A stretch of 64,000 nucleotides of DNA, from positions 13,354,516-13,418,515 of the forward strand of contig CM046861.1 of the NCBI GenBank assembly GCA_025617745.1, given 5' to 3'. Of the stretch, positions 32,001 to 47,252 are shown piece by piece. The position numbers were made by a program, and so were the translations under genes. Each line of letters begins with the position of its first letter. Position 1 is the stretch's first letter. Origin of the DNA: Heliocidaris erythrogramma. Its lineage: Eukaryota; Echinodermata; Echinoidea; Camarodonta; Echinometridae. The notes below the pieces were generated by a model. It saw only the letters and a program-made list of their open reading frames with translations, did no database searches and was not told where the DNA came from.

Positions 32001-33511
32001 AAAAAGCACTGACAATCAAGCTCTCGGGAAAAAGTGGTGTGCTGATCGCAACGATGAAAAATTGCATACATGTTGGGTATTGAATGAAAGCTTATACATT
32101 CAGCTACAGCTTGAAAATAACGTCACATGACAAAAATGCTATCAGCCAATGCAAAGGCAGTATTTACGGGGAGTCCCCACAGCCATACGCAAATCGCCCG
32201 AACAGCCGCTCGGGAGAATTTACTGCCGCGAGAGCGCACGCATTGTAACGTACCTAATATTTTGGGGTCGGTTTTTGAAAATTAAATGCCGATTTTGAGT
32301 GAATGTTGGTGACTTTTGTGCAGTGGTGTTTGAAAAAGTTGAGCCGTATGACTGCCTAGATTCTACACACGAAGTATAGGAATGTAGCTATGAGTGCATT
32401 TAGGGTCCAATTTTGAGGTGCTCGGACGAGCATGGGTACCACCACTCATAGGTACATTCCTATACTTCGTGTGTATAATGTAGGCAGTCATACACCTCAT
32501 CTTTTTAAAACACCACTGCACAAAAGTCACCAATATTCACTCAAAATCGGCATTTAATTTTCAAAAACCGACCCCAAAATATCCAAGAAATACAATAAAT
32601 TCAACTCACCAATGTTGGAAAAGATATTTACAAAAATGAAATCCGCAATTTACTGTTGATTCTCGCGAAACGAGCTATCGGAGTCATTGTGTACATTTCC
32701 TGGTCGCCGCGGGGGCTGACATCTCCCCAAAAGAGTTTTGTCCTCAAAAATTCGGTCCCTATGGCGTACACGGAAAAGTTGTGCCCTTGCGATCCCGAGT
32801 TTCTTCGTGGACAAAAATTATATTGGCCGATTTTAGTCTAAGACATCGGCAGTTTGTAAACAACACGCGATCGCGAAACAAATCGGCGGGGATTTCTCCG
32901 GTTTTGGACAAGATTTTGACTTTGGATTTTGCTGTAAATATCAAAAGTTCTTCCTAACGGCCATTTGAGGTAGGAGTGAGATTTTTAAGGGCTGAATTTG
33001 AAAGCAAGTATTTAAAATATTTATCTTATTTTCCCCCCCATACCTTTAGTACATGCGACAGAAAATACCAACTATTTTACAGTAATGTACCCGTGAGTGG
33101 GTACCACTAACTTACTAGATCAGATGGGTACTTCAGTCTGCGACCCCCCCCCCCCCCCCCCCCCCCCCCGGATTTGCACAAGCGCAAATCAAGTTTTACC
33201 TCAGGCCTAAGCTTACTGTACTGTCTGAATACCATTCTGATTTCAAATCACACCATTATCGAACACAAAAATTAAGCTGAACCCTTGACCAAATAACAAA
33301 AACGACACAAGTCAATATCAACGTGGGCGTGGAACATGAGACTCTTCAGAGTGCACAAAAATAAGTGGATGGGACTGGGACAGCGGGGACTGGGCTGAAA
33401 ATATTGCACCAATAAGCTTCACAATTTTCATTAAAATCAATTCAAGGATTGCCTACCTTGACACGATACAGCGTGCAGGAATGCCAGGACTAGAGCAATA
33501 TGAAAATACAT
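9707..33511 (-). CDS. secreted or surface modular protein, unrecognised family (10-exon gene model)
   Basis: Exons in transcript order: 33511-33457, 27163-27012, 26216-26107, 25613-25503, 21097-20993, 20386-20328, 12396-12329, 11573-11477, 10681-10415, 9897-9707. Every junction has AG/GT signals and all codon phases join, giving 1215 bases and 405 codons. The first 18 residues (MYFHIALVLAFLHAVSCQ) form a signal peptide. Then come three modules of about 100-120 residues that share V-x-V-x-C patterns (VVVMCS, VEIQCSG; VTVSCD, VQVACYG; ITYACY, NPTCEV), suggesting disulphide-linked beta-sandwich domains. A Thr/Pro-rich stalk (TTPTTPPVQTTP) resembles mucin linkers. NVS, NNS, NTS, NAT and NST offer glycosylation sites. 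The last exon either splices onward at GAG|GTTAGT or reads on to a stop at 9656-9658. I know no named family for it. The function is unknown; an extracellular role is inferred. Confidence 0.72.
10083..10107. repeat. poly(C) tract
   Basis: A run of C interrupted once by T, inside the last intron of the secreted-protein gene. Confidence 0.9.
10415..10681 (-). CDS. exon 9: module 3
   Basis: 267 bases, the largest exon, with acceptor GATTTTACAG and donor GTAGAT. It encodes a whole module, including ISVFLVLGSVLTPGEGTITY, ACYVDPVMSYEQ and NPTCEVPDD, and starts the Pro/Thr stalk (PTPAPAVTTV). Confidence 0.75.
11298..11475 (+). mobile_element. MITE with TACAGT ends, copy 1
   Basis: Ends are TACAGTGAAACCTG and the inverse CAGGTTTGACTGTA, with TA at both edges, as in Tc1/mariner-type MITEs. 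The inside repeats GGTCTTTATA-type motifs. A second copy lies about 400 bases to the right. Confidence 0.75.
11477..11573 (-). CDS. exon 8: end of module 2
   Basis: 97 bases with acceptor TTCTTGTCAG. It encodes IPYDIGKLGDIVQVACYGVS and ends TSQ plus one base. Its donor GTACAG falls on the edge of a MITE (11298-11475). Confidence 0.72.
11701..11894 (+). mobile_element. MITE with TACAGT ends, copy 2
   Basis: Same ends and internal AAGACCGCTCAAGGGAGACA block as copy 1, in the same orientation. Both copies are intronic. Confidence 0.75.
12329..12396 (-). CDS. exon 7: module 2
   Basis: 68 bases with acceptor CTTTTGTAG and donor GTAAGA. It encodes NNSLRLDFQDTAVEPGSRTD, then VI, ending in phase 0. 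The intron before it is almost 8 kb and is full of transposons. Confidence 0.72.
12397..13344. other. intron sequence without recognised feature
   Basis: AT-rich intron between exons 6 and 7. No exon or repeat could be supported here. Confidence 0.4.
13345..13811. repeat. inverted pair of tRNA-derived SINE copies
   Basis: The segment at about 13345-13478 returns as its reverse complement at about 13672-13811. A direct copy of the outer block (AACGAAGAAGCTTGACTGGG) also occurs at 13321 and 13605. The transcript could fold into a hairpin with arms of about 135 bases. Confidence 0.75.
13438..13502 (-). repeat. tRNA-like head of the SINE
   Basis: The minus strand reads an A-box-like TAGCCTGGTGGTTAAG and then a B box GGTTCGAATCC at typical spacing. 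It has no complete cloverleaf that I could fold, so a SINE head is more likely than a working tRNA. Confidence 0.6.
13869..14165 (+). mobile_element. tRNA-derived SINE with ATT-repeat tail
   Basis: The head has A-box-like TGGTCTAGTGGATACG and B box GGTTCGAGTCC. The body contains TAAAGCCAGGGTAATAATAT and GCGCTGTATAAAT and ends in (ATT)n. The tail module recurs at about 34164-34280, where it also ends in (ATT)n. Confidence 0.75.
14166..15399. other. intron sequence without recognised gene
   Basis: Contains a short tandem of ATCCAACTCTA-type units near 14361-14400 and a poly(G) near 15032. No coding exon could be supported. Confidence 0.4.
15400..15708 (+). repeat. dispersed repeat R3, left part (interrupted)
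   Basis: It matches the reverse complement of about 62395-62745 over ATATACCAGATGCATGAGT, AAATTGGCAACACATTGAGA and neighbouring blocks. The copy continues after 17584, so it was split by the TTAA transposon described next. Confidence 0.75.
15994..16311 (+). CDS. THAP zinc-finger protein fragment from the transposon
   Basis: 105 codons. The start MLLCQAIYCSNRHENCPGKS fits the C-x4-C start of a THAP finger. It is followed by FFAIPDPKK, a tryptophan (AVWIRNIG) and the closing RVVCEDHF, which completes C2CH. The C-terminal part (about 30 residues) shows no catalytic domain. THAP fingers of transposases bind element ends; here the catalytic part is absent. It may be a DNA-binding relic or the first exon of a lost transposase gene. 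I infer the start from the usual THAP position at the N terminus. Confidence 0.72.
   Translation: MLLCQAIYCSNRHENCPGKSFFAIPDPKKDRERCAVWIRNIGTTKFNVKTYIYSRFRVVCEDHFDGEDEEQSHMPLDHFFAQKIPHLLSLNYKLIEECDQILLGD
16410..17152. mobile_element. TTAA MITE nested in the THAP transposon (piggyBac-like ends)
   Basis: Ends are CCCTATTCCTACTGG and the inverse of CCCTATTCCAACTGG, flanked by TTAA on both sides (16406-16409 and 17153-17156). Poly(G)-TCAATTTGACCCCCC palindromes lie inside both ends. CCY ends plus TTAA suggest piggyBac. There is no coding capacity. Confidence 0.72.
17651..18583. other. intron sequence without recognised gene
   Basis: AT-rich. The R3 repeat probably ends near 17650. Nothing else is supported. 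Confidence 0.4.
18584..18838. mobile_element. MITE with AATAGACCACTTCGG ends
   Basis: The ends AATAGACCACTTCGGTAATG and, inverted, AATAACCGCTTCAGTAATG are imperfect inverted repeats of about 33 bases. A 22-base unit (TGTTCTTGACAACCT) is duplicated inside. Confidence 0.6.
18839..19996. other. intron sequence without recognised gene
   Basis: No exon, RNA gene or repeat structure that I can support. Confidence 0.4.
19997..20044 (+). repeat. poly(G) tract of about 46 bases
   Basis: An uninterrupted G run in the intron next to exon 6. On the coding strand of the gene it is poly(C). Its length may be affected by assembly. Confidence 0.95.
20328..20386 (-). CDS. exon 6: module 2
   Basis: 59 bases with acceptor TTTTTAAG and donor GTAAGA. 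It encodes EPVVDYRVTVSCDIIGVID and ends in phase 1. Confidence 0.72.
20531..20570 (+). repeat. 20-base tandem duplication
   Basis: CATACATTACGGAAGATTAA occurs twice head to tail. Confidence 0.95.
20993..21097 (-). CDS. exon 5: start of module 2
   Basis: Acceptor CCTTACAG, donor GTAAGT. It encodes FLVVKKSPVVSFCEPIIFVP and then VTSSVVQVEL. LINE B sits in the intron between this exon and exon 4. Confidence 0.75.
21284..24760 (-). mobile_element. LINE B, CR1/jockey-type, intact ORF2
   Basis: It is inserted in the intron between exons 4 and 5 of the secreted-protein gene, in the same orientation. The 3' end is marked by AATAAATGAAATGAAATGAA-type pentamers at 21284-21308. The 5' edge is unclear and is drawn just beyond the ORF. 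Confidence 0.82.
21732..24752 (-). CDS. LINE B ORF2: APE endonuclease and reverse transcriptase
   Basis: 1006 codons without interruption. The endonuclease covers about residues 60-290: LNIRSLNCNF, LTETWL, CYRPPNSN, GDFNIDIS, SDISDHYPIF. Reverse transcriptase follows at about 500-800: NFRPISLLP, FGFRRGHNTSH, LDLSKAFDTIDH, CGVPQGSLLGPLLF and catalytic FADD near 727. The C-terminal part carries LPYLNYGIIVWGN and LLQKKAMRVI, typical of the thumb region in CR1/jockey elements. The enzyme nicks genomic DNA and reverse transcribes the element RNA there. The intact frame suggests recent activity. The gene-internal position and same orientation mean it would be transcribed within the host pre-mRNA. 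Confidence 0.92.
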   Translation of the reverse strand: MPPTHLKSPDCKLKRNHQSPLLLSLGYTDLNEDTDNNYISSNYFTMNQFKSLEITPVTFSLMHLNIRSLNCNFDNLRFLMDTPGHSFSIIALTETWLTQESASSYSLPGYAFVENNRINRRGGGVALYIKQHFDYFIHSDLNCMTEIAESIVIEIRVPNSKNILITVCYRPPNSNIHDFLEYLQDLLHNPLFTNKDCYIIGDFNIDISNSSINTSQEFLDTMFSASFLPLITKPTRVTNQTATLIDNIFCNVIPLPESGIVLSDISDHYPIFSRSPCSFNKKDIPSERFRRITPNKIAQLKVSLEGADWADVYSSHDTNTAYNTFMTSFMSHLDRHIPLVNKSSNYKKSPRLPWITKSILRSINRKNNLYYANKIQRSVKSHRKYTSYRNILTKILRIEKRKYFQNQLILFKHDISKTWKIINSVINKNNDKSRVTNIKHNNVEIHDSVQIANVFNQYFSQIGHNLAKNIPPTQKKFSDFIHQPNPNSLFFVPVHRNELIDIVHNLKNKKSTGHDGIDNILLKNVINYIVDPLVHIFNLSLSSGVVPDCMKISKVIPVYKKGEKCHICNFRPISLLPALSKILERIIYKRLLNFLNKNNIISDFQFGFRRGHNTSHAVLAFVEKITRAIDKLNHTVGVFLDLSKAFDTIDHKILLYKLNNYGIRGKALGWFSNYLTNRKQFVCINDQCSSMQDVNCGVPQGSLLGPLLFIIYINDIHNSSNILSFMLFADDSNVLLSHPNPDILTNTLNIELDKLLQWIRANKLSVNLQKTKCMLFSNSIDILPHNIKLDSTDIEVVSSMKFLGLTIDDRLSWKVHIDTICRTISRNIGIINKVKFVLPTNSLLMLYSTLILPYLNYGIIVWGNTHNSYLHRILLLQKKAMRVICNTSWRSHTDVLFIENKILKISDLYRYNLGQFMYQLNNNALPSIFNIIFNKNKTIHQYPTRQSDEFHLPLTRTMLSKSIFTFTGPKLWTILDNSIKNAPSLNSFKFKLKTILLSNCSQTSAL
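24718..25332 (-). other. 204-codon open frame upstream of LINE B ORF2, doubtful
   Basis: It overlaps the start of ORF2 by 35 bases, an arrangement that could suit a LINE ORF1. However, I see no zinc knuckle, coiled coil or RRM in it, and an inverted repeat at 25092-25447 overlaps it. It could equally be chance. Confidence 0.25.
25092..25447. repeat. inverted repeat, possible MITE
   Basis: GCACTGACATATATACTGGC near 25095 is matched in inverse at about 25424-25443, with the arms extended by CCAAATTGAACG versus CGTTCATTTTGG. No target duplication was identified. Confidence 0.5.
25503..25613 (-). CDS. exon 4: end of module 1
   Basis: Acceptor TTTCTAG, donor GTATGT. It encodes IEEQGRRVEIQCSGETSPDN and then SYFSFDTSAGPT, and ends in phase 2. 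Confidence 0.75.
26107..26216 (-). CDS. exon 3: module 1
   Basis: Acceptor CTTACAG, donor GTAGGA. It encodes VVVMCSIITPYENGDSRVVF and ends GTIDF plus two bases. It contains the first module cysteine. Confidence 0.75.
27012..27163 (-). CDS. exon 2: first half of module 1
   Basis: Acceptor CTTTTAG and donor GTAAGC. It encodes TLFGVVSLSLSPLTSVSVNQ and then FVNVSLFLYDS to FIDED, ending in phase 0. Confidence 0.75.
27170..27191 (-). repeat. (GA)n microsatellite by exon 2
   Basis: On the coding strand it is (CT)n directly before the acceptor of exon 2 and lengthens its pyrimidine tract. Confidence 0.8.
27400..28935 (+). repeat. long pyrimidine-rich tract
   Basis: Roughly 1.5 kb, strongest at 28190-28930, is made almost only of T and C on this strand, as TTCTTTTTC-type words. 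It generates long Phe/Leu/Ser-rich frames in all three readings, up to 220 codons at 28309-28971, which I regard as artefacts. Confidence 0.8.
28066..28157. repeat. hairpin in the pyrimidine-rich intron region
   Basis: CGATCTGAACATATAACGCT...AGATAGCTACATCCAGATCG pairs with interruptions, with arms of about 37 bases and TCCTCGG-type outer ends. It may be a small MITE. Confidence 0.45.
29412..29846 (-). pseudogene. LINE reverse transcriptase C-terminal fragment
   Basis: 144 codons begin near LRPHLEYGSVLW and include IERVQRKATKLVRELKDF and RRIMDDWNSLPEDIV. These are the thumb and C-terminal motifs of CR1/L2-type reverse transcriptases. The catalytic domains are missing. At its 5' side it abuts repeat X copy 1. 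Confidence 0.75.
29847..30206 (+). repeat. repeat family X, copy 1, with conserved frame
   Basis: The frame from 29865 (105 codons) includes EIPADLFRDRVLFTYRRCLR, LKSANKIFVHEETRDRK and IGTEFLATKFFWGDVSAR. The same protein words appear in copies 2 and 3. A GGTGAGTTGAATTTATTG block, a good splice donor, ends the conserved part in all three copies. Confidence 0.7.
30770..30925 (+). repeat. LINE 3' tail relic
   Basis: T-rich untranslated sequence ends in AATCTGAATAAAATAAAATC, resembling the 3' end of LINE A. No coding part remains. Confidence 0.4.
31653..31791. mobile_element. MITE family M, copy 1
   Basis: Ends GGGGAGCGTTTCATCAAGCG and its inverse. The inside contains CAGCCAATCAGATGCAAGGA and TCAGTAGCTTATAACAG, shared with three other copies near 55.0, 56.4 and 57.9 kb. 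Confidence 0.75.
32257..32582. repeat. palindrome at the edge of repeat X copy 2
   Basis: The arms of about 135 bases start ATATTTTGGGGTCGGTTTTT and return inverted at 32582. They include the CACACGAAGTATAGGAATGT block. The loop is about 50 bases. One arm alone is present in copy 3 at about 47285-47430. Confidence 0.75.
32583..32990 (-). repeat. repeat family X, copy 2
   Basis: Minus-strand match to copy 1, with KTGEIPADLFRDRVLFTN and LKSANIIFVHEETRDRK. It is frameshifted soon after. The end AAAGTTCTTCCTAACGGCC is identical in copy 3. Confidence 0.7.
33128..33170 (+). repeat. poly(C) tract
   Basis: About 25 C in a row at 33145-33169, in intron 1 of the secreted-protein gene. Confidence 0.9.
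33457..33511 (-). CDS. exon 1: start codon and signal peptide
   Basis: ATG at 33511, 18 codons plus one base, then donor GTAGGC. The hydrophobic core HIALVLAFL followed by SCQ is typical of a cleaved signal. The phase-1 end joins exon 2 to make GAA (Glu). Confidence 0.75.
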
Positions 33512-33670
33512 GGTAAAGCACCGTAATTCCACTTAAATTTTGTCATTTTATGCATATTTAAAAGGGACGCCACCGCGCAGAGATTGTTAGCAACAGAAAT
33601 ATTTTCAAGGCCCTCTATCGTCCGGATCTTACGAAGCCCTGAAAGGGCCGAATTGACGACGTAAAAAAAA

Positions 33671-33725
33671 AAATAACGTACGTACGTACGTGATAAATAC
33701 TACGTACATACGTGATAATATCACA
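33671..33725. repeat. TACG array, left outer arm
   Basis: Runs of ACGTACGTACGTACG separated by TGATAAATACT-type spacers. Each run is its own inverse. Confidence 0.85.
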
Positions 33726-34163
33726 CGTGAAAAAGTTTGAAATTATACAGCTGCTTTATTATTATCCGTCGATTCCCGGCGTTGATTTGCCACAATTGTG
33801 AGCCTGTGGGCTCTAGCTTGTCTAACTAGTGTGAAGAAACCTCAACATTTGTGTGGTGTGTGACCGGCAAGTCCGGTCCCAGACAAATCAAAACAGAATA
33901 AAGCAGTTCGACTCTGTTCGAGTAAAATCAAACAAAATGAAGTTATGAATCTTTATGACACTGAAAGCTACTGAAAACAAAGAAAATCACTAGACAAATT
34001 GGCCAGTTTGTCATGAATTTGTAACGTCCCATATCCTCATCCCATCAATGATTTTCCCAGAATATGATTTCCTCATAACTTGAACCTAATCATAGACGAT
34101 TTATAGTACAGTGCAATATGTTTTTACACGTAATATCCGGGGGAAAAAAGTCAGTGAGAACGC

Positions 34164-34280
34164 CGGAGCTAAAGCCAGGGTAATAATATCCAAAAACCCT
34201 TTGGAAGCGCATAGGGACGTTATATTATAATGTGATATGCGCTATCCAGAACAGTGGTATTATTATTATTATTATTATGA
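34164..34280 (+). repeat. SINE tail copy with (ATT)n
   Basis: TAAAGCCAGGGTAATAATAT and ATATGCGCTATCCAGAACAG precede (TTA)n, as in the SINE at 13869-14165. The tRNA-like head is missing. It lies in the unpaired 1.4 kb of the foldback left arm. Confidence 0.65.
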
Positions 34281-35527
34281 CATATTCCTAGTCATTGTTT
34301 ATTTTTTAAATTTTTGATCTTCATGCTATTAAGAAATTCCCTTTTTCAGTATTAACACACACATGCAAAAGTATATGAGTGAAATATAATTGCATTCAAT
34401 TTATGACGAAATCACAGGCCTATTCTTGGACAAAACGTAAAATGTTTTATTAATAGACCTGTAGGAAGCAGATAATTGCTTTTTTCGTCAGCACTGATCT
34501 TTATATAAGATTTTTTTAACGTGTATAGAGATCACTGAGTGGTCGTGAGGGAATGACGTCAACCCTCATGACTAAATTGTCTAGTGATTTTAATTTTTGT
34601 TCATATTTATTCATGCCTTTGAAAAAATTCACATGTTAATTTCTTATATGTCCGACTTTCGTCTATCCTTTTTTTAAACAAAATCTGCTTTCTCCACCTA
34701 ATTTTCAAAGCGTCTTTCAAAGTGTGTGTGTGGGGGGGGGGGGGGGGATGAGTAGGCCTACCAAAAAAAAAAAAAGACACCCGAGGGCACCCGCAAGGGG
34801 TGCATATAAAGCGACATTGGTATTATTATCAAGCGCCTTCTTATGGTGGTTCTGCTTCAGCTTCAGCTTCCACAATTAGCAGTTGTGTGCAATTGTCTAA
34901 TGATGCACGTGCGAGCCAGCAAAAATCTTAAGAATTTTTCTAATGTTCATGTTGTTATATATGCATTATTTACAGCGATAGTGAAAATGACAACAAATTA
35001 ATTTGGGTGAAATGTCGAATGATCTTTCATTTCTTACGTTAACCTTGTGGTTTTTCTTCCGGAGATATCAACATTGTTATGGTATCTGCTTGATTTCATA
35101 GGCCTGCTAGCAAGCTAGTCTTGGGACATTTTCTGAAAATATTGACCTTATTAAAGTGTGTAAGTTATGGGCACATTCGAGCTAGTGGAATATGAATTCC
35201 TTTGCTGGTGGGGGGGGGGGGGGGGGGGGAGCATTGTGCTACTCTAGATCTGCCTCCAGCTCCGCTGGCTTACATTGTAGTTGTAGTATGGGTAGGTACA
35301 TGTTGCTACATAAAGCCGCAATGATTCTTGAAGCTAGATATGACACTTTTTGTAAGAAACAAAGGGAAATTATAGGGATAAGGGTACACTTATTAGATGA
35401 AGAAAGTGAGCTTATGAGAGGTGGAAAGGGTCATTATAAGAGGTGAAAATTAAGTAGCTTTTGTGAGAAGAAGAAAAGGGCATATATTAGATAGTAAAAG
35501 TGACACTCAAAAGTAAAGACGGGGAAC

Positions 35528-35755
35528 CAGATTAAAAAGAGGCACTAGAAGGGGAAATGTGCACTTATTAAGGAAAAGGGGCACTTAACAGATTTAAAAA
35601 GAGGTACTTATCAGAAGGGGGAAATTTGCGTATTGGGGAAAAGGGGCACTTTTCATATTTAAATGAGGCACTTATCAGAAGGGGAAATGTGCACTTATTG
35701 GGGAAAAGGGGCACTTACAGTAGTAAAAAGGGCACCTGTCAGAGAGAAAGGGGGT
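35528..35755 (+). repeat. tandem modules in the left inner arm
   Basis: About three degenerate copies of a unit of roughly 70 bases, with GGCACTTATCAGAAGGGGAA and GTGCACTTATTGGGGAAAAG. The right arm has about one copy at 43600-43680. Confidence 0.8.
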
Positions 35756-35950
35756 ATTTTAAAAAGCGTGGTGGCACTGTGCCCCCTGCTCCAGGTGATT
35801 TTAAAAAAAAATTGTTTCTCGGAACGAACTTGACTTTTACTTATTGACGCTGGAGCCCCGAAGATTAATTTTTGAATTGGGCCTAATGAGATTGTACTGT
35901 TTTATCTTACAAAATACATGTAGCGGACATGGAAATATTTACATAATTAA

Positions 35951-36239
35951 GTTATTACGTACGTACGTAATAATACTACGTACGTACGTATTATTATTAC
36001 GTACGTACGTAGTATTATTACGTACGTACATAGTAAATATTACGTACGTATTGATGACGATCAATGGCAGCGGCCGATCGAGAGGGACAGACTCGTGCGT
36101 TTGTATTTTGAAATTGGTTTTACTCAGAGGGAAATACTGTATTATTTAATTCCCAAGCAAAAAAATAATCAAAAGCCACAGAACCCTTAAGCGTGTCTTA
36201 AAAGGCCTTGCATTATTTCGAAGAAAACCATCAATGTCA
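35951..36239. repeat. foldback centre with TACG arrays
   Basis: ACGTACGTACGTA runs at 35956-36046 separated by ATAATA spacers, then GCGGCCGATCGAG. This is the unpaired middle of the foldback. Confidence 0.8.
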
Positions 36240-36436
36240 GGCTCAGCATGACACTTAATTATGTAAATATTTTCATGTCTGCTACATGTTTTGCAAAACA
36301 AAACAATACAATCTCCTTATAGGCCCAATTCAAAAATTAATCTTTGGGGCTCCAGCGTCAAGAAGTAAAATTCAAGTTCGTTCCGAGAAACAATTTTTTA
36401 AAATCAGAAGTGGCGCACCCGGGGCAGGGGGCACAG

Positions 36437-37570
36437 TGTCAACTCTAGTTACTGGAATTTATCTAGGTAACACTGTAATAGATTTCGTTCTGATAAAGTG
36501 AAAGGGTAACTGCAAATAAGGGCGACTTCACACAAGAATATACATTTAATAATTTTTATTAGAGCGTCGAATTCCTGCTCTTGTTCAAAATCAAATAAAT
36601 ATATACATGTGGAAAATCAATACGAAACTTCATGTTGCACAATAACGTATACGACTGTTGAAAATTCATTTATACGAGTCGCAACAAACTATCATTAATT
36701 CAGAAAATACTAGGTTGTGGCAAAACAGTTGAACAGATTGATTATAAATTAGAGAATTACATTGGTTGTATAGCACCTGAAAAAGGGGGAGTTATAGGAT
36801 TCAGCACATCCGTCCCAAAGCCTTGAGTTCATAAGTCCAAGGTGCTGAACTACACAGAGTGATGTGGCCATTGTCTTGAAGAGTGAAGAATGAGAGATGT
36901 GATCGCTGTCTACGGCGTGAAGTAAAGACTGTTGATGGACGTATGCAATAAAAAACTGGCAGATGTCTACGAGGTGTATCGAACTACGTCTGACCGTATT
37001 TATGAATGGTGTCCTTGGCATGAAGATAACGGTGAAATCGATCATGAGCCCAGCTCATCCAGTTCATGAAGCGTTGACTCAAGCTGGGGAAAGTGGAGGT
37101 TTCTCTTGGCCTGTGGCTACCAAAAGTTGCACTAAAGCACAAAGTAGTAGTTTTGTCTGGCTCACAAAACTGTACACAAAATCAGTGTGCCTCATCCTCA
37201 GTGCCTCCAACAATCACACAACAAAACTCACACAGGAGCCTGTGGCAGCTCCCGAAACTTTGCAACCTGCTTCTATAAAATCATGGTGTCCACTGCCTAC
37301 AATCTTGCTAGCTTCATCTAACAATCAATACACTAACACTCCCTCTCATGCACAAACACAAAAGAGCCAACCTCCCATACAAAAGAAACAAGCTGTGTAA
37401 CCCATAACAAGTTATGTAAGGTATGCAAGCAATCTTGGCTATATGTAAATTACCCTATCCACTTAAGACTGGTGGCAAACCCAATTAATATGTAAACTGT
37501 ACATGGCTCACTAGTCCAGTTCCAGGAACAAAATGATAGGGGGGGGGGGTAAACTATTTACATTGTGACA
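36437..37570 (-). repeat. 3' LTR (1134 bases)
   Basis: TGTCA...TGACA ends. It differs from the 5' LTR by two substitutions (T/G near 36920, A/G near 37033), a two-base indel near 36790 and one base in a poly(G). Confidence 0.95.
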
Positions 37571-37586
37571 TATCTCCCCTTCCTTC
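37571..37586 (-). promoter_or_regulatory. polypurine tract
   Basis: The minus strand reads GAAGGAAGGGGAGATA directly before the 3' LTR. Confidence 0.75.
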
Positions 37587-37729
37587 AAGAAATTTCTATA
37601 ATTTCAAAATGGGACTAAATTAGGGAGAAATTATCCGTTAGTTTATACTTAAAGAAAAACATTTGAGCAAATTTAAATTTACATCAACAAGGAAAAAAAA
37701 AAAAAAACATCCTTTTTAGTGTTCAGTAT

Positions 37730-40700
37730 TCAGTCATCTGGAATCCTGCTGAGATAATCTGCACCAACGTTCTCGCTGCTCTTGATGGCAATGATGGTGA
37801 ATCGATATGGCTGTAGAGCAAGCGCCCATCGTAGGATCCTTGCGTTTGCCACTTTCGACTTCGCTATACACTTGAGTGGTTGGTGGTCAGTTTCCAGTTG
37901 AAAATGCTTCCCAAACAAGTAGGCTCCGAATTTCTGGGTTCCCCAAATAACTGCCAAACACTCTCGTTCCATGACTGAGTATCGCTGTCCTCGTGGAAGA
38001 AGCTTCCTGCTGGCATAGGCGATGGGGAATTTCCGTCCATCTCTCTCCTGCAGCAGTATTGCCCCTATACCAACGTCTGAGGCATCTGTCCTCAAGATAA
38101 AAGGAAGAGTCAGGTCTGGAAGGTGAAGGATGGGCTCTTTCTCCAGTTTCTGCTTCAATGTCTTGAAAGCCATCTCCTCCGCATCTCCCCATGTAACTAC
38201 TGTAGGCTCTCCTTTCTTCGTGCGATCGGTCAATGGAGCTGCTATTGCGGCAAAATTCGGAATGAATCTACGATAATAGCCTACCAGTCCCAAAAATGAA
38301 CGAAGTTGTTTCTTGGTCTTCGGCCTTGGTGCTTCCTGGACGTCGCTGACCTTGTCTTGTACTGGTCGAAGTTTGCCTTGTCCTACACAGTGACCAAGAA
38401 ATTCTATATTTCCATACCCAATGAAACACTTGGTTGGTCTTGCCGTCAGATTTGCCTTCTTCAGCCTTTCGAACACTTCCTTGAGAATGACTACGTGATC
38501 CTCAAATGTAGCTGTATGAATAAGGATATCATCAATGAAATTATCCACATTACTCAAGCCACGGAGTAAATCTCTCATAATGCGACTAAAGCTTGCTGGC
38601 GCATTCACCAACCCAAACGGCATAGTCAAAAATTGATACAAACCATCTGACGTCACAAAGGCTGTGAGTTCCTTAGCGTTATCAGTGAGTGGCACCTGCC
38701 AATACCCTTTTGCTAAATCGATCTTGGTGAAGTATTTGTCGCGAGCTAACTTTGCGAAGATTTCCTCTTGATCTGGAATTGGTTCTGCATCAGTCACAGT
38801 GACTTGATTCAGCTTCCTATAATCGCAACAAAATCTGATAGTCTCGTCTTTCTTCTTGACCATGACTATAGGTGATGCATACGGTGAAGAGGATGGTTCG
38901 ACTACTCCTAAATCAATCATCTTCTGAACTTCCTTTGTCACCTCACCTCGCAAGGCATGGGGTAATGGGTATGGTTTGCTCTTGATTGGTTCCTTGTTTA
39001 GTAGTTTGATGTCGTGCTTTCCCAAATTGGTCAATCCGGGCATGTCAGTCAGGACTTCCTGATACTCCTCAAGTAGAGAGTTGATTACCTGTTGCTGACT
39101 TTCATCCAGATGGGAGTTTATCTGCACATCTTGTAGAGATTCAGTTGGAGTTAGGGTTGGGAGATGAAGAAGATTCTTCTCCGATGCAGGCTGATTGTCC
39201 TTGTCATCTTCTCCCATTGTGCCCTCATCAAGAACTGATACACAAGCGACATCACTATCGTCATCGTTCCTTCTGAAAAACTTTTTCAGAAGATTTGCAT
39301 GGAAAGTTTTCACCTTTCCGTTCATGTCGATCTTGTAATCCAGGTATCCAACTCGCTGAACTACCTTGAATGGTCCTTGCCAATGCATCAACAGTTTGTT
39401 GCGGTCACTTGGGAGTAGGAGCAGAACCTCTTCACCAACTTCAAACTTCCTATTCTTTGCTTTGCGGTTGTATTGTCTGCGATACTTTTCAGACGACTTG
39501 CACAGATTCTCCTGTGCCAGTTGACACGTTGCCTCCAACCGATCCTTCAAATCCAAAACGTATTGGTACGTTGTCTTAGTATCCGGCTCGTCCACTTCTC
39601 CTGTCCACAACTCCCGAAGAATGGCGAGAGGACCACGGACTGTCCTTCCATATAGAAGTTCGAATGGTGAAAATCCTGTACTCTCCTGGACTGCTTCCCT
39701 GTATGCAAAAAGCAAAGGATTAATATACCTGTCCCAGTCTTTGGGTTTCTCTTCACACATCTTGCGAAGCATGGCCTTCAATGTGCCATTAAAGCGTTCA
39801 ACCAAGCCATTACACTGCGGATGGTATGGTGTAGTCGTCATCTGTCGAATGGACAACAATCGGCTAACCTCCTTCATCACGTCAGATGTGAACTGGCTTC
39901 CTCTATCTGTTAACACTTCTCTGGGTATACCAACTCTTGAGTAAATGTCAACCAATGCTTCAGCGACTGTCTGCGTATCGATTCGACGAAGAGCTACTGC
40001 TTCTGGATATCGAGTTGCGTAATCAACTACGGTAAGGATAAAGCGATTTCCTTTCGCAGTCGCTGGCTCAATCGGTCCAACAAGATCTATGGCAATACGC
40101 TTGAAAGGTTCATCAATGAGGGGCGTTGAACCCAAGGGCACCTTCGTCACCTTGCCCTTTGGAGCTGTTCGCTGACATGGCCCACATGAACGGCAGTATC
40201 GTCCCACATCGGCATGCATTCCTGGCCAGAAAAAGTGACATTGTATCCTATCACAAGTCTTTTTGTTGCCTAAATGACCTCCAAAGATGGACTCGTGTGC
40301 TAGTTTCATGACTTGATTACGAAACGGTAAAGGCACTACAACTTGCATTACAACATCTGATCCAGGGTTTACATCAACAAATTTCCTATACAGCACATTA
40401 TCCTTGTACAAAAACGAAGTAGTGTTGCCTTTCTTTGACATCCTTTGATCTTCCCCGTCCGCATGTTGTCTCAAAGATTTCAAAGATTCATCTTCCCTTT
40501 GGGCTTTCATTAGATCATTAACAGACACACTGCTTTCCAGTGGCTCAGGTACTCGAAGAGGAGGCCTTGTTCGTCTTGCCTGCTGCTTCTGCCCTCTTGT
40601 TTCCACTGCGTTGGCTTGATGCTCTTCCGGTGTCCAGTCTTCTTCTGGATCAGCCGGTTGTCGCGCTCCAGGAATGTTACCCAATACAATATCGTAAACA

Positions 40701-42181
40701 GGGGTTAATACACATAAGGCTTCAACCTTACCCTTGAAGTAGGGAGTGTCCAGATCGATCTTGGCAACTTGGAAGGTCCTCATCGTCTGATCGATGAGCA
40801 AGCATGTCCGCTGTTCTCCAGTGAACTGCTCCTCCAAAACCAAGTCACGTCGAACGATGACAGTTGTGCACCCGCTGTCACGAAGAACATCAACCAGCTT
40901 TCCATTCACCATTCCTTTGATGACTGGCATCTCCACTGGTGAACCGCTCGCTGCTGCTGACAGTACTGGAAGGGTATCGCCTGATGCTAACTTCACTCCG
41001 GTTCCGTCTTCGGTGAGGTTCTCTTCTATGATTAAACTCAAACCCTTCTGGTTCTCATGAGCTATCTCCTTCGCATCAGTAGATCCTGCTGGAGCATCGC
41101 CTCTGACTGATGAATCCTCTGACCTCCCGTTGACGAGACTTGAGCCCATCTCACGTCGACCTTTCTTAGTTGGGCAATTAAAAGAAAGATGTCCAAATTG
41201 ATTACAAGTGTAACACTTCCTACCATCAATTTGGGGCTTACTTGATTTTTCAAAACCACTTGATCCTTTATTATTATTATTAGTTGGATTAGTATGGCTT
41301 TGACTCTTATTGAAGTTACTGTTAGTATACTTCTTAGAACTGGACTGCTGGGCTTTCATCCCCCGAAATCTTATATCTGTATGAGCATCCTGATACTGAT
41401 CAGCTAAAGTTATAACCTCATTCAAATTACTAGGATTTCGCTCCTTAATGAACATCAATAACTCCTTACTACAAGTATCAAATATTTGCTCCTGAATCAA
41501 TAACGACTTAAGTCCCTGATAATCATCATTAAATGGACTAAGTTCCACCCACCTATCAAGATATTTCTCAATCCTGGATGCATATTGCACAAATGTCTCA
41601 CCCTGACAGAGTTTAGACCGCCTAAACTTTAACCTATACCCCTCCTCTGTTAAGTCATACCCCTTCAAGAGTGATGATTTGACAATTTCATAATCCTTAG
41701 CTTGCTCAGATGTGAGCCTAGAAATTATATCTAGTGCCTTCCCAGATAACAATGCAGAGAGTGCCAATGCCCAATCGGCCCCATCCCAACCTACGCTGGA
41801 AGCATGTCGTTCAAATCTACACAAATAACTGTCAATATCATCTTTACCTTCTTGAAATACAGGAAGAGGAGGTATACTTGGCCTTTGAGTATGCCCTAAC
41901 CTAGGTATTGGTCCCGACCCAATCTCTTTCCTAATCTCTTCTAACTTTATTTGCTTAGTCACCAACTCGGCTTCTACTTTCCTAGCAACTCTAGCTTCTA
42001 TCCTTTCCTCTCTAGCTTCTCGCGCACACTCATCAACATACTGTTTTAATTCTTGCCCACTTAAACCAAATTTTTCACCCTGAGCTATAAACTGTTCCCT
42101 CTCCATAATTATTGTTAGACACACACAGGATGAGATTACACACCTACCAATAAATTTCGGTTTTTGCTGTGCAGAAATCAA
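37730..42181 (-). CDS. gag-pol polyprotein, Gmr1 order (Gag, PR, INT, RT, RNase H)
   Basis: 1483 codons without a break. The more likely start is the second Met at 42106 (MEREQFIAQGEKF), as the preceding 25 residues look untranslated. Domains in order: Gag with a charged N terminus and a CCHC knuckle CYTCNQFGHLSFNC near residue 320; protease-like DSGCTT near 432; integrase HHCC near 627-670 and DDE (IDLVGP, TDRGSQF, LVERFNG) near 696, 758 and 793; reverse transcriptase from about 1055 with FCCDYRKLN and FIDD near 1213 (FIDD instead of YIDD); RNase H with LRTDASDVG near 1364 and the end LSRIPDD. Integrase precedes reverse transcriptase, as in the element at 1-2982, but the two proteins differ clearly in sequence. 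A single frame without gag/pol shift implies processing by the protease. Confidence 0.95.
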   Translation of the reverse strand: MISAQQKPKFIGRCVISSCVCLTIIMEREQFIAQGEKFGLSGQELKQYVDECAREAREERIEARVARKVEAELVTKQIKLEEIRKEIGSGPIPRLGHTQRPSIPPLPVFQEGKDDIDSYLCRFERHASSVGWDGADWALALSALLSGKALDIISRLTSEQAKDYEIVKSSLLKGYDLTEEGYRLKFRRSKLCQGETFVQYASRIEKYLDRWVELSPFNDDYQGLKSLLIQEQIFDTCSKELLMFIKERNPSNLNEVITLADQYQDAHTDIRFRGMKAQQSSSKKYTNSNFNKSQSHTNPTNNNNKGSSGFEKSSKPQIDGRKCYTCNQFGHLSFNCPTKKGRREMGSSLVNGRSEDSSVRGDAPAGSTDAKEIAHENQKGLSLIIEENLTEDGTGVKLASGDTLPVLSAAASGSPVEMPVIKGMVNGKLVDVLRDSGCTTVIVRRDLVLEEQFTGEQRTCLLIDQTMRTFQVAKIDLDTPYFKGKVEALCVLTPVYDIVLGNIPGARQPADPEEDWTPEEHQANAVETRGQKQQARRTRPPLRVPEPLESSVSVNDLMKAQREDESLKSLRQHADGEDQRMSKKGNTTSFLYKDNVLYRKFVDVNPGSDVVMQVVVPLPFRNQVMKLAHESIFGGHLGNKKTCDRIQCHFFWPGMHADVGRYCRSCGPCQRTAPKGKVTKVPLGSTPLIDEPFKRIAIDLVGPIEPATAKGNRFILTVVDYATRYPEAVALRRIDTQTVAEALVDIYSRVGIPREVLTDRGSQFTSDVMKEVSRLLSIRQMTTTPYHPQCNGLVERFNGTLKAMLRKMCEEKPKDWDRYINPLLFAYREAVQESTGFSPFELLYGRTVRGPLAILRELWTGEVDEPDTKTTYQYVLDLKDRLEATCQLAQENLCKSSEKYRRQYNRKAKNRKFEVGEEVLLLLPSDRNKLLMHWQGPFKVVQRVGYLDYKIDMNGKVKTFHANLLKKFFRRNDDDSDVACVSVLDEGTMGEDDKDNQPASEKNLLHLPTLTPTESLQDVQINSHLDESQQQVINSLLEEYQEVLTDMPGLTNLGKHDIKLLNKEPIKSKPYPLPHALRGEVTKEVQKMIDLGVVEPSSSPYASPIVMVKKKDETIRFCCDYRKLNQVTVTDAEPIPDQEEIFAKLARDKYFTKIDLAKGYWQVPLTDNAKELTAFVTSDGLYQFLTMPFGLVNAPASFSRIMRDLLRGLSNVDNFIDDILIHTATFEDHVVILKEVFERLKKANLTARPTKCFIGYGNIEFLGHCVGQGKLRPVQDKVSDVQEAPRPKTKKQLRSFLGLVGYYRRFIPNFAAIAAPLTDRTKKGEPTVVTWGDAEEMAFKTLKQKLEKEPILHLPDLTLPFILRTDASDVGIGAILLQERDGRKFPIAYASRKLLPRGQRYSVMERECLAVIWGTQKFGAYLFGKHFQLETDHQPLKCIAKSKVANARILRWALALQPYRFTIIAIKSSENVGADYLSRIPDD

Positions 42182-42400
42182 GTGAAGACTTGCCCTGAAG
42201 TATCAGCAATTGGTGAAGCCTCCTTTCCCCACTTGAGTCACTGCCCTCTATGAAGTGTAACCTGCATGTAACAATCCTCAATGGAGAGAAAAAAATAATT
42301 AGACAGGTGAAACAAAATCACTGAGTTTTCATATATAAATCTTGATTTGACAGGTTAACCATTCACTATTATTTAACCTAACCTATCACAAAGAAATAAA

Positions 42401-42418
42401 GTCCCTTCGTGGTCGCCA
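42401..42418 (-). promoter_or_regulatory. primer-binding site, probably tRNA-Arg
   Basis: The plus strand GTCCCTTCGTGGTCGCCA matches the 3' end of a tRNA including CCA. From memory of animal tRNAs this is tRNA-Arg. It is four bases inside the 5' LTR edge at 42423. Confidence 0.75.
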
Positions 42419-42422
42419 TTTA

Positions 42423-43555
42423 TGTCAACTCTAGTTACTGGAATTTATCTAGGTAACACTGTAATAGATTTCGTTCTGATAAAGTGAAAGGGTAACTGCA
42501 AATAAGGGCGACTTCACACAAGAATATACATTTAATAATTTTTATTAGAGCGTCGAATTCCTGCTCTTGTTCAAAATCAAATAAATATATACATGTGGAA
42601 AATCAATACGAAACTTCATGTTGCACAATAACGTATACGACTGTTGAAAATTCATTTATACGAGTCGCAACAAACTATCATTAATTCAGAAAATACTAGG
42701 TTGTGGCAAAACAGTTGAACAGATTGATTATAAATTAGAGAATTACATTGGTTGTATAGCACCTGAAAAAGGGGGAGTTAGGATTCAGCACATCCGTCCC
42801 AAAGCCTTGAGTTCATAAGTCCAAGGTGCTGAACTACACAGAGTGATGTGGCCATTGTCTTGAAGAGTGAAGAATGAGAGATGTGATCGCTGTCTACGGC
42901 GTGAAGTAAAGACTGGTGATGGACGTATGCAATAAAAAACTGGCAGATGTCTACGAGGTGTATCGAACTACGTCTGACCGTATTTATGAATGGTGTCCTT
43001 GGCATGAAGATAACGGTGAGATCGATCATGAGCCCAGCTCATCCAGTTCATGAAGCGTTGACTCAAGCTGGGGAAAGTGGAGGTTTCTCTTGGCCTGTGG
43101 CTACCAAAAGTTGCACTAAAGCACAAAGTAGTAGTTTTGTCTGGCTCACAAAACTGTACACAAAATCAGTGTGCCTCATCCTCAGTGCCTCCAACAATCA
43201 CACAACAAAACTCACACAGGAGCCTGTGGCAGCTCCCGAAACTTTGCAACCTGCTTCTATAAAATCATGGTGTCCACTGCCTACAATCTTGCTAGCTTCA
43301 TCTAACAATCAATACACTAACACTCCCTCTCATGCACAAACACAAAAGAGCCAACCTCCCATACAAAAGAAACAAGCTGTGTAACCCATAACAAGTTATG
43401 TAAGGTATGCAAGCAATCTTGGCTATATGTAAATTACCCTATCCACTTAAGACTGGTGGCAAACCCAATTAATATGTAAACTGTACATGGCTCACTAGTC
43501 CAGTTCCAGGAACAAAATGATAGGGGGGGGGGGGTAAACTATTTACATTGTGACA
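42423..43555 (-). repeat. 5' LTR (1133 bases)
   Basis: Drives transcription on the minus strand. The ends and length match the 3' LTR. Confidence 0.95.
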
Positions 43556-43749
43556 CACAGTGCCCCCACGCTTTTTAAAATGCCCCCTTTCTCTCTGATA
43601 GGTGCCCTTTTTACTACTGGAAGTACCCCTTTCCCCAATAAGTGCACATTTCCCCCTTCTGATAAGTGCCTGATTTTTCCCAGATACAAGTAAAAACATG
43701 TTGGATATGAAAGAAAACAATTGTGATGAGGATATCGGACGTTACAAAT

Positions 43750-45363
43750 ACTTCCCTACTTCCCCAAAGAACTTTGTTGATTTTTTGCCTGAGCCTACCC
43801 TGGACAGTTTATTTTTATTTCCTATATACTGCTGAGGATGAATTGTTTGATATTGTTAGATCTCTTAAAAGTAAGAAAAGCCCTGGCTTTGATTATATTA
43901 AGAATGACCTTATTAAACATGTCGTGAAAGGAATTTTGAAACCCCTCACTCATATTTTTAATTTATCTATGTTAAATGGTGTTGTACCTAGAAACATGAA
44001 AATTGCTAAAGTTGTACCTATCTATAAGAAGGGAGACCCTCAGTTATTATCTAATTATCGCCCTATTTCTTTATTGACATCTTTTTCAAAAGTTCTTGAA
44101 AAAATTGTTTATATTAGAGTCATGAAATTCTTTAATAAGGCTAACATATTTTCGCATTTTCAGTTTGGATTTCGTGAGAAGCACACAACTACACATGCTA
44201 TATTGCACTTTATTGAGAAAATTGGTGCTGCCTTGGACAATCATTTGCATACTATTGGTGTATTCTTAGACTTTTCAAAAGCCTTTGATACAGTCGATCA
44301 TAAAATTCTGCTACATAAATTATCCCATTATGGGGTCAGAGGCATTGCCCTGGACTGGTTTAGAAGTTATCTCACAAATAGGAAGCAATTTGTTTCTTTG
44401 AATAAGAATGATTCTAGTTTACAAAAGGTCACGTGTGGCGTACCACAAGGGTCCCTTCTGGGACCACTCTTGTTTATTTTGTATATAAACGATTTCCAGC
44501 ATTCATCAAGCGTGTTGTCATTTATATTTTTTGCAGATGATTCTAATGTATTTTTTTCTCACAAAGATCCTCAAACCCTATTAGAAACCGTGAATCTTGA
44601 ATTGGAAAATATTACCTCGTGGATTAATGCTAATAAGTTATCGCTTAATCTACAAAAGACAAATTATATGCTTTTTAGTAACTCAATGAAAATAGTACCT
44701 GGGGATGTCTTATTTAATAATGTTTGTATTGAAAGGGTAACATCAACTAAATTTCTTGGGCTACATATCGATGAGAAATTGAATTGGAAAATTCATGTAC
44801 ACAATCTTTGTAAATTGTTGTCAAAAAATGTTGGTGTAATATACAAACTAAAGTCAGTTTTCCCTAAAGAGGTTCTGCTTATATTGTATTCAACTCTAAT
44901 TTTGTCTTATCTTAATTATGGTGTGTTAGCGTGGGGAAACTCACTTAAAACAAACATGGAAAAGTTATTTATTGTTCAGAAAAGAGCTATTAGGAATATA
45001 TGTAATGTCCATTATCGTGCCCATACAAGTGTTCTTTTTTATGATAATCATGTGTTGAAAGTAGAAGATATTTATTTTATGCAGTTAGGATCTCTCATGG
45101 ATGATTTTTCTCTCAAGAAGCTTCCTGTAGCACTGGCGCAAATGTTTAAAATAAATAATGAGGTTCATAAATATAATACTAGACAAGCCACCTCCTTCCA
45201 TATATCTCGTGTAAGGACAACATTTACTCTTGACACAATAGTCTGTACTGGACCCAGGTTCTGGAATGCACTCGATTCTAGCATTGCACATGCTGCCAGT
45301 ATTTCTGTGTTTAAACGCAGATTAAAGTCTTATTTATTAAGTAAATATAAAGATGATTTGTGA
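43750..45363 (+). pseudogene. LINE C reverse transcriptase, truncated
   Basis: The first about 25 codons read in another frame (SPKNFVDFLPEPTLDSLFLF). After a one-base-type shift near 43826-43830 the frame runs without break to the stop at 45361: YRPISLLTSFSKVLEKIV, FGFREKHTTTHA, LDFSKAFDTVDHK, CGVPQGSLLGPLLF and FFADDSN. The thumb region LSYLNYGVLAWGN follows. It is close to LINEs A and B in sequence and retains the segment LINE A lost. Without endonuclease and with no 5' part it cannot move by itself. Confidence 0.88.
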
Positions 45364-45887
45364 AACCTTTTTAGTTCATGCACTTGTATACGGAGTCAGT
45401 TTTGTTATTTTTTATACTTAAATTATCATACAGTGTACTAGCAGACCCTTCCCCCTTCCCCCTCCATTTTGGGCTGGCTTGTGTTTCTGTGTGGCTTGTG
45501 TTTCTTGTGTTGTTTTGTGATTTTATCCCGTCCTCTGTCCTGTCCTTTCTTTTTTGTCATGTCGAACTGTGCCACATTGTCTTTTGTGTCTTTTCCATCT
45601 TCACCTCTTTCACTTACTTGTATCCTGGATTATACCAGTAAGTGATCTTATTTTTTTTCCGTGTTAATTGGAAATAGTTACTAACATGCCATGAGGGGCC
45701 TTAAGTTTACAAGCATTGCTTTCACCAAGGTCTCCTCGTCTTTCTTTTCAACTATTTACAGTATAAAAAAATTTTGCATTGTTCATTTGTTGTGCCTACA
45801 CTATATAAATTTCATGTTTTGCTATTTCACAATTGTACATGTACAATGATTTGAAAGACAAAATAAACTTGAAACTTGAAACTTGAA
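43750..45887 (+). mobile_element. LINE C, 5'-truncated, in the foldback right arm
   Basis: ACAAAT flanks both ends (43744-43749 and 45888-45893). The foldback sequence resumes exactly after it. The 3' end is AATAAACTTGAAACTTGAAA, a 7-base repeat tail. The endonuclease half is missing. Confidence 0.9.
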
Positions 45888-45947
45888 ACAAATTTATGAC
45901 AAAGTGGCAAATTTGTCTAGTGATTTTCTTTGCTTTCAATAGTTTTC

Positions 45948-46080
45948 AGTGTTATAAAGATTCATAAACTTTCAGACTATACAGTTGTCAGATAATTTTT
46001 AGTGTTATAAAGATTCATAAACTTTCAGACTATACAGTTGTCAGATAATTTTTAGTGTTATAAAGATTCATAACTTCATT
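45948..46080 (+). repeat. 53-base tandem repeat
   Basis: AGTGTTATAAAGATTCATAA starts at 45948, 46001 and 46054, so about 2.4 copies. It lies in the right outer arm of the foldback and explains part of the length difference from the left arm. Confidence 0.95.
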
Positions 46081-46345
46081 TTGTTCGATTTTACCCGAAC
46101 AGAGTCGAACTGCTTTATTCTGTTTTGATTTGTCTGGGACCGGACTTGCCGCTGGGAAAATGAAGCGACACACACGTGCACTTACACATCCACCAACACA
46201 CGTCACACACACACATCACACAAATGTTGAGAATTGACACTGCGGCTAGAGCCCATGCACAGGCTCACAATATTGTGGCAAATCAACGGGAATCGACGGA
46301 TATTAATAAGGCAGCTGTGTAATTTCAACCTTTTTCATGTATTAT

Positions 46346-46475
46346 TTATTACGTACGTACGTAGTATTATTACGTACGTACGTAATAAATATCACGTACG
46401 TACGTAGTATTATCACGTACGTACATATTATTTACGTAGGTACGTAGTATTATTACGTACGTACGTAATATATAT
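46346..46475. repeat. TACG array, right outer arm
   Basis: Six or so runs of ACGTACGTACGTA with AGTATTATT or AATAAATATC spacers. Longer than the partner array at 33671. Confidence 0.9.
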
Positions 46476-46522
46476 ATTTTTTTACGTCGTCGGTTTGGCC
46501 CTTTCAGGGCTTCGTAGGATCT

Positions 46523-47252
46523 GATGCAGTCGCTCAATCGACGTACCTGTACGTACCTGTAACTTTTTAAACAATGTTTTTTTCAACGAGCTGACTAGCC
46601 GAAAATAAATCCATTATTTCTTCAGAACAGTTACAAGTTACAGAGATCAGTGATAATTCAAGAGGTGTAACATGTCAACGGTAAGATTTGATTTTTCTCG
46701 AGAAAATGTCGGCAAAATGTCTTATTCACAATATGTCATGTACTGAAAAAGAATATTTGTAAAGAAGTTTCAACTCAGCGCTTTGGTGCAATAATGAAGC
46801 TTGGCTTCAACGAAGCGCTCGGGCTGGCGCTCGGGCTACAGCTGGGCAGCGACGGATATAGATCCCGCTTCTCGGCCCCGATGTTGCATGTTGACAGCCG
46901 ACTGTTTACGATCTACTCAACTCTTAATAAAGAGGGAAGTCCTCCCTGGATGTATTTGTTGTTGTTGTTGGTTTGATGGCAATTTCCATCGGTGAATTTA
47001 GTTTATCTTTAAAAAAGTACAAAAATTAGAGGAAAAAAATCAGTGAAGTTTGAGCGAAATCCTGTGATGTGAGAAATGAAGTTGAACTTGACATGACTTG
47101 AAGAATTAAGAAAGTTATGATTTTTTTAAAAACTTGTAACTTATACTTGTAGCAAGTTAGATCTAATCAATCGCAAATTGTATGCATAGAGAACATTTTT
47201 TACTTAGCCTAGCTGAATAAAAAATGAAATTACTTTGACAGTTCTTTTCAAG
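46523..47252. other. no gene seen right of the foldback
   Basis: Two short overlapping frames near 46794-46995 have no recognisable domain. Confidence 0.35.

Follow-up and report, generated by a model that had tools for sequence, protein, structure and literature searches.

What kind of mobile element left 12.9 kb of a sea urchin chromosome in mirror-ordered arms, and what kind of transposase would have moved it? The question is raised by a 64,000-nt stretch of Heliocidaris erythrogramma DNA (GenBank assembly GCA_025617745.1, contig CM046861.1, positions 13,354,516 to 13,418,515), hereafter the window, in which positions 33624 to 46522 had been predicted, from the letters alone, to be one giant foldback element with younger insertions. 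We found that this interval is a single foldback transposon carrying nested younger insertions, as its 20-bp ends, flanking GGATCT copies, mirror order and nested elements bear out. We further propose, with a probability of roughly 0.77, that it is a non-autonomous foldback DNA transposon from an IS3EU-type element, i.e., one with an IS3/IS481-like DDE integrase. An IS3EU origin is the best reading because TA..TA termini, 6-bp target site duplications (TSDs) and a transposase remnant occur together, and the element was most likely once mobilised in trans as a non-autonomous IS3EU derivative.

The element body (33630 to 46516) lies between two directly adjoining GGATCT copies, and its ends are perfect 20-bp terminal inverted repeats, with TACGAAGCCCTGAAAGGGCC occurring exactly at 33630 to 33649 (+) and 46497 to 46516 (−). 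Both termini read TACG..CGTA, i.e., TA..TA. When up to three mismatches were allowed, the 20-bp end gave just two matches in the window (0.02 expected), and none of 100 shuffles had two. Between the ends, the blocks follow a mirror order, in which the outer segment 33630 to 34044 pairs with 45888 to 46516 plus 43722 to 43749 and the inner segment 35661 to 35952 pairs with 36253 to 36441 and 43556 to 43676. The element yielded 12 self-inverted matches (1363 bits), whereas seven comparison stretches of 12.9 kb from the window, some of them overlapping in part, gave 0 to 3 (0 to 366 bits) and five shuffles gave none. The locus has long inverted arms with internal tandem repeats and a variable middle, which is the architecture of a foldback element. 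Removal of the long terminal repeat (LTR) retrotransposon and the long interspersed nuclear element (LINE) leaves 3,619 bp, in agreement with the ~3.6 kb given by the original prediction; the TACG arrays that it described are also real (21-bp unit), while its roughly 70-base modules are tandem units of 65 and 53 bp. Two corrections apply, namely that the arms are unequal (34045 to 35530 has no right-hand partner) and that the left arm contains an overlooked ~112-bp insert resembling a short interspersed nuclear element (SINE). The parts of the element itself are as follows:

33624 to 33629: TSD GGATCT, left copy
33630 to 33649 (+): left 20-bp terminal inverted repeat, perfect, TA..TA terminus
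33630 to 34044 (+): left outer arm (terminal repeat, TACG array, arm domain)
33676 to 33720: left terminal TACG array
34045 to 35530 (+): left-only arm domain, without right partner, common to other copies
35531 to 35735 (+): 65-bp tandem module, 3.2 copies
35661 to 35952 (+): left inner arm
35953 to 36050: central TACG array, 21-bp unit, 4.6 copies
36083 to 36227 (+): decayed transposase N-terminus with helix-turn-helix, P0005-type residues 2 to 49, in two frames
36253 to 36441 (−): right inner arm, part 1, its final bases overlapping the start of the LTR element
43556 to 43749 (−): part 2 of the right inner arm, followed by the beginning of the right outer arm
45888 to 46516 (−): right outer arm
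45943 to 46073 (+): 53-bp tandem module, 2.5 copies
46346 to 46467: right terminal TACG array, 21-bp unit, 5.9 copies
46497 to 46516 (−): right 20-bp terminal inverted repeat, perfect
46517 to 46522: TSD GGATCT, right copy

The element belongs to a family in its own genome (G000, 1.06 Gb). Searching with its left end produced 158 matches (626 candidates, 40 scored), and copies were sampled as 20 stretches, one extension, eight stretches with palindromes or pairs, seven further pairs and one inner piece. The check proposed with the original prediction came out in its favour, and neither outcome named there as refuting occurred: there are other copies that share the ends, carry both arms, have 6-bp duplications and lack the LTR and LINE inserts. 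Specifically, 17 copies had two readable ends and represent independent insertions, with TSDs matching at 6/6 positions in 12, at 5/6 in four and not at all in one (C8a). The TSD length is 6 bp, with no other length from 4 to 9 bp matching in full, and only 7 of 850 shifted control comparisons reached at least 5/6. This count leaves out C4, whose right end is damaged; C9dup, which is the same insertion as in the window; C10, in which the right end was not reached; E5, in which it falls beyond the retrieved stretch, a listed end lying just outside; C6, C14b, C7b and C8b, with a single end each; and L038 to L045, at the fixed site of another repeat.

The exact 20-bp end occurs 3,502 times in the genome (reversed control: 0), and we considered and rejected the idea that these are 3,502 insertions: all six palindromes fetched from contig C1 (five of 136 bp and one of 134 bp) lie at one site of another repeat and have no TSD. 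We therefore set apart the ends preceded by C (3,393 of 3,502), since C is the base before the palindromes fixed in that repeat. The remaining 109 suggest ~145 independent exact ends, given a random base before an independent end. The fixed site belongs to an abundant repeat, and the 136-bp palindrome found there (L038 to L043, L044 and L045, G000:C1) has the foldback ends and a TACG array; in L044, a larger nested palindrome occupies the site. Elsewhere (L014/L015, G000:C3:30493900-30508700), one copy, E4in, sits exactly within the terminal repeat of another, E4out, each with its own 6-bp duplication (GAAAGG for E4in and TATAAG for E4out), and the outer one also has a 1519-codon open frame. 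A scan of viral and prokaryote collections for the exact 20-base end returned 0 loci, as expected for an animal repeat.

Next, we asked whether the two unequal arms belong together. In a tree of the arm domain, the right arms of the window element, C2, E4in and C8a formed one clade (support 0.999), apart from all left arms included. Interrupted, incomplete or undetected arms (E3 right, E4out both, C14a right and C9dup both) were not included in this tree, and seven later copies (L054 to L060) stand outside it. Because these four right arms group by themselves, the asymmetric element is judged to have moved as one unit, with both arms inherited together. Within single copies, arm identity was 98.6 to 100% in E1, E2, C19 and C4 and 91.6 to 93.7% in the four asymmetric copies. 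Of the later copies, L056 to L060 share the block order of the window (L057 and L060 in the other orientation), while L054 has no left outer arm and L055 no centre. The unequal lengths of the window arms and their 91.6% identity in the aligned domain would suit two unrelated palindromic repeats, or an inverted duplication, brought face to face by chance, but this explanation is refuted by the 6-bp TSDs, by the same asymmetric order in other copies and by the right-arm clade, and we consider it extremely improbable.

Evidence on the origin of the family comes from the middle of the element. Positions 36083 to 36227, flanked by the central TACG array and the right inner arm, encode in two frames a helix-turn-helix N-terminus, which in copy C8a is a single open frame of 62 residues. 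The C8a peptide, used as an X-padded query, led to one protein from three candidates, P0005 (282 amino acids; 80% identity over 81% of the query, E 1.3e-13), and in a search of the retrieved loci the window remnant matched residues 2 to 49 of P0005 (E 2.5e-10). P0005 carries Pfam domain PF24764 and has 1,379 relatives at E ≤ 0.001; the named ones among the 120 listed come from fish, echinoderms, molluscs, an insect and a frog. A 19-sequence alignment has near-invariant D130, D189 and E230, a pattern that fits a DDE core. All five PF24764 relatives tested matched the NCBIfam IS481 and IS3 transposase models at E 3e-6 to 7e-3, which falls well short of the curated cut-offs; for these five, no other model scored better. 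A PDB sequence search using alignment A1 gave 0 matches, and a structure model (mean predicted local distance difference test score 68.6) gave weak fold matches, the top three being IstA, TnsB and retroviral integrase, none with E ≤ 0.001.

A remnant match (E ≤ 0.01) was present in 10 retrieved loci, including the window, and none extended past P0005 residue 53, with the exception of L061 (copy C15, at 27919348 to 27935929), which keeps residues 2 to 106 at 71% identity, preceded by the same inner arm and TACG array. Among the copies with two ends, 10 of 17 have the remnant. We also analyzed where P0005-like sequences lie in the genome. The search with P0005 gave 139 matches, among which we distinguished the first 34 (at least 210 residues), 45 further ones reaching the core and 36 with the N-terminus only; two weak N-terminal matches (46 to 47%) from longer broken genes were excluded from the 36. 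Proximity was defined as lying within 15 kb of 100 listed ends (of the 109 not preceded by C), optionally with nine hand-picked arm matches added. By this measure, 27 of the 36 N-terminus-only matches lie near a foldback end (29 with the nine arm matches), compared to 0.3% of random positions.

Across 12 copies, the remnant has 15 synonymous and 39 nonsynonymous distinct changes, a synonymous share of 0.28 (0.25 expected), so that it looks neutrally evolving, without sign of selection. We rejected the possibility that it is a conserved repressor peptide on the basis of this neutral-looking share and of frame-breaking gaps in the remnant.

These features agree with published accounts of IS3EU. 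PMC10045372 describes TA..TA termini and usually 6-bp TSDs, both of which the window family has. The third IS3EU character, an encoded IS3/IS481-like DDE transposase, is represented here by the N-terminal remnant alone, and the model matches of its full-length relatives fall below cut-off. In common with IS3EU and GingerRoot elements (PMC10045372 and PMC12730594), the family has TA..TA termini, 6-bp duplications and, as a remnant, a probable IS3/IS481-related transposase; it differs in its long foldback arms, in having no catalytic core in the copies examined and in its TACGA terminus.

Several observations weigh against an IS3EU origin. The terminus is TACGA and not TAYGG, the rust-fungus IS3EU ends being TAYGG..CCRTA (PMC12730594); for the superfamily as a whole, PMC10045372 gives just TA..TA. 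The remnant was not found in the retrieved DNA of E1, E2, E3, C14a, C19 and L055, which include symmetric copies, and L056 has only a short piece of it; symmetric copies without it may have lost the remnant or had their middle exchanged. The catalytic core was absent from every retrieved copy examined, and no core-bearing P0005 match lay ≤15 kb from a listed foldback end (0 of the best 34 and 0 of the 45 further ones). Comparison of the P0005 matches with 100 of the 109 ends not preceded by C, plus the nine arm matches, likewise found no intact transposase with these ends. The NCBIfam IS3 model NF033516, run against the genome, yielded 73 matches, 0 of them over the cut-off, and the eight loci inspected (L046 to L053) contain gypsy-type retrotransposon frames. 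In addition, copy C8a has no TSD, and PF24764 proteins are here only provisionally equated with IS3EU transposases.

Some of the same facts could be read to mean that a foldback of another DDE superfamily captured an IS3EU gene fragment in its middle: just residues 2 to 53 are present (2 to 106 in one copy), 7 of the 17 two-ended copies have no remnant match, and captured DNA is, as is generally known, often found in foldbacks. We consider capture unlikely, in that the TA..TA ends and 6-bp TSDs fit IS3EU independently, the fragment begins at the protein's own N-terminus and adjoins the TACG array, and most such fragments in the genome (27 of 36) are close to a listed foldback end.

The original prediction had likened the element to the TU class of sea urchin foldbacks. 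TU elements have 8-bp target duplications and 15-bp outer tandem repeats, whereas the window family has 6-bp duplications, 21-, 53- and 65-bp units, TA..TA termini and an IS3/IS481-like transposase remnant, a contrast drawn with the general description of TU elements. The overall plan is foldback-like in both, with long inverted arms and tandem subrepeats, the kind of host is possibly the same, and a sea urchin foldback is named in PMC4079207. On balance, membership in the TU family is very improbable, and the class assignment was not upheld.

Returning to an IS3EU origin, we propose that an ancestral IS3EU element would have lost its catalytic core, with its ends and 5′ region duplicated in inverted order to become the arms. 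Because the inner arm and TACG array of C15 directly precede the transposase start, the data suggest that the arms are copies of the ancestor's 5′ region. A transposase encoded elsewhere would bind the TA..TA ends, and perhaps the 21-bp repeats too, which, by analogy with repeats in Galileo arms (PMC4079207), are possible extra binding sites; acting in trans, it would excise the whole element and insert it at cuts staggered by 6 bp. Once the element was in place at GGATCT, the SINE would have entered the left arm and the locus would then have been duplicated (inverted, ~0.95 Mb away); the Gmr1-type retrotransposon and the LINE would have entered the right half, the LINE step having no fixed place in this order.

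Two observations concern other candidate transposases. We rejected the P0001 to P0003 frames in copy C10 as the foldback transposase, as they are part of a separate element inserted there. This 13.4-kb DNA transposon (L023 1227-9901 plus L029 1-4715; G000:C10, ~44306526-44319915) has ~125-bp inverted ends (78%). None of P0001 to P0003 matches a Pfam family, and for P0002 no solved structure was a convincing match; P0002 has 68 genome matches, some weak ones lying in open frames of up to 1612 residues, and is possibly a member of an unnamed transposase family. Separately, long P0005-like matches (44 to 56% identity), e.g., C3:21510694-21511518, C8:29313381-29314205 and C1:39003809-39004636, fall into groups of equal scores, and 33 of the first 34 have no internal stop, which suggests, from their reading frames, that related P0005-like elements may have been recently active.

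Other foldback families share parts of this plan. According to PMC4079207, Tetris and the miniature inverted-repeat element DAIBAM of Drosophila virilis likewise have multi-part arms with tandem repeats, a non-coding variable middle and short ends that also occur on a small palindromic element. In the same source, Tetris has 8-10-bp duplications and 220-bp repeats, and its transposase was not found, unlike the window family with its 6-bp duplications, 21/53/65-bp units and transposase remnant. Galileo and Drosophila Foldback, of the P superfamily, have long, internally repetitive inverted arms too, but their transposase is P-type with a THAP domain, in contrast to the IS3/IS481-like helix-turn-helix remnant here. 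The Tm1 Mutator/Foldback of root-knot nematodes is a foldback family similarly assigned to a DDE superfamily, but to Mutator and not IS3EU.

A literature search (subscription papers and Repbase reports lay outside it) found no earlier IS3EU foldback and no paper that links IS3EU with sea urchins; a single paper mentions both foldbacks and IS3EU, the former in a cited title and the latter as a label in a table. We see about an even chance that this is the first case of a foldback family being linked to an integrase-like (IS3/IS481-type) transposase, with stages of birth and decay coexisting in one genome. If so, a single genome would contain, next to long transposase frames of this type, one copy with ~106 transposase codons left and others with ~50, as well as arms of both kinds, symmetric and asymmetric, and 136-bp palindromes that have the same ends and are frozen in another repeat. 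The origin and mover of some foldbacks are still in question, Tetris being a case in which the authors did not find the transposase (PMC4079207). A decayed transposase piece in the middle of many copies points to a superfamily, and copies at different stages of decay occur in one genome, which makes both foldback origin and trans-mobilisation testable.

Finally, we examined the insertions nested in the element, which are as follows:

34164 to 34275 (+), approximate limits: (ATT)n-tailed SINE-like insertion; shared with the C9 duplicate, missing from C8a, E1 and C2
36432 to 36436: target duplication CACAG of the Gmr1-type element, left copy
36437 to 43555 (−): nested Gmr1-type LTR retrotransposon; LTRs 36437 to 37570 and 42423 to 43555; minus-strand frame 37730 to 42202, integrase before reverse transcriptase (RT)
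43556 to 43560: target duplication CACAG of the Gmr1-type element, right copy
43750 to 45887 (+): 5′-truncated LINE, RT domain only; flanks ACAAAT at 43744 to 43749 and 45888 to 45893

We take the LTR element to be of the Gmr1 type, in which integrase precedes RT; its frame has integrase domains at residues 622 to 813 and RT at 1114 to 1270, i.e., integrase upstream of RT. Counted by eye, the aligned LTRs (1134 and 1133 bp) show two substitutions and two small indels between them. In the LINE, the RT domain alone was detected, and the AC of its ACAAAT flank may belong to the tail of the LINE itself. Both the Gmr1 and LINE sites are uninterrupted in three other copies (C8a, C2 and E4in).

The window insertion has an inverted duplicate ~0.95 Mb away (L018, C9:12437108-12441956) that includes both window flanks, with three long matches at window positions 33401 to 33753 (95%), 33750 to 35877 (97%) and 46100 to 46689 (88%). 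This duplicate contains the SINE but neither the centre nor the right inner arm, and it has no LTR element or LINE; these parts could have been lost by deletion. The original prediction held that the relative ages of the insertions can be read directly, which proved true in part. The LTRs, with 2 substitutions in ~1,130 bp, have diverged much less than the two loci have, which dates the Gmr1 insertion as younger than the duplication of the locus, and the SINE, by its presence in both, dates as older. The LINE has no place in the order and is assignable neither before nor after the duplication; because it and the Gmr1-type element sit side by side, nesting is uninformative on which came first. 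Foldback arms can promote rearrangement, as stated for Galileo and DAIBAM (PMC4079207), and the inverted duplicate may be an example of this. One arm of L018 is split by a 2.1-kb insert (L018 ~5733-7835).

Outside the element, fragments at window positions 349 to 2667 are 57 to 58% identical to the Gmr1-type element in the opposite orientation and represent an older relative. The window also contains two further LINEs with endonuclease and RT domains, at 5425 to 8494 (two frames) and 21732 to 24761 (open over 1009 codons).

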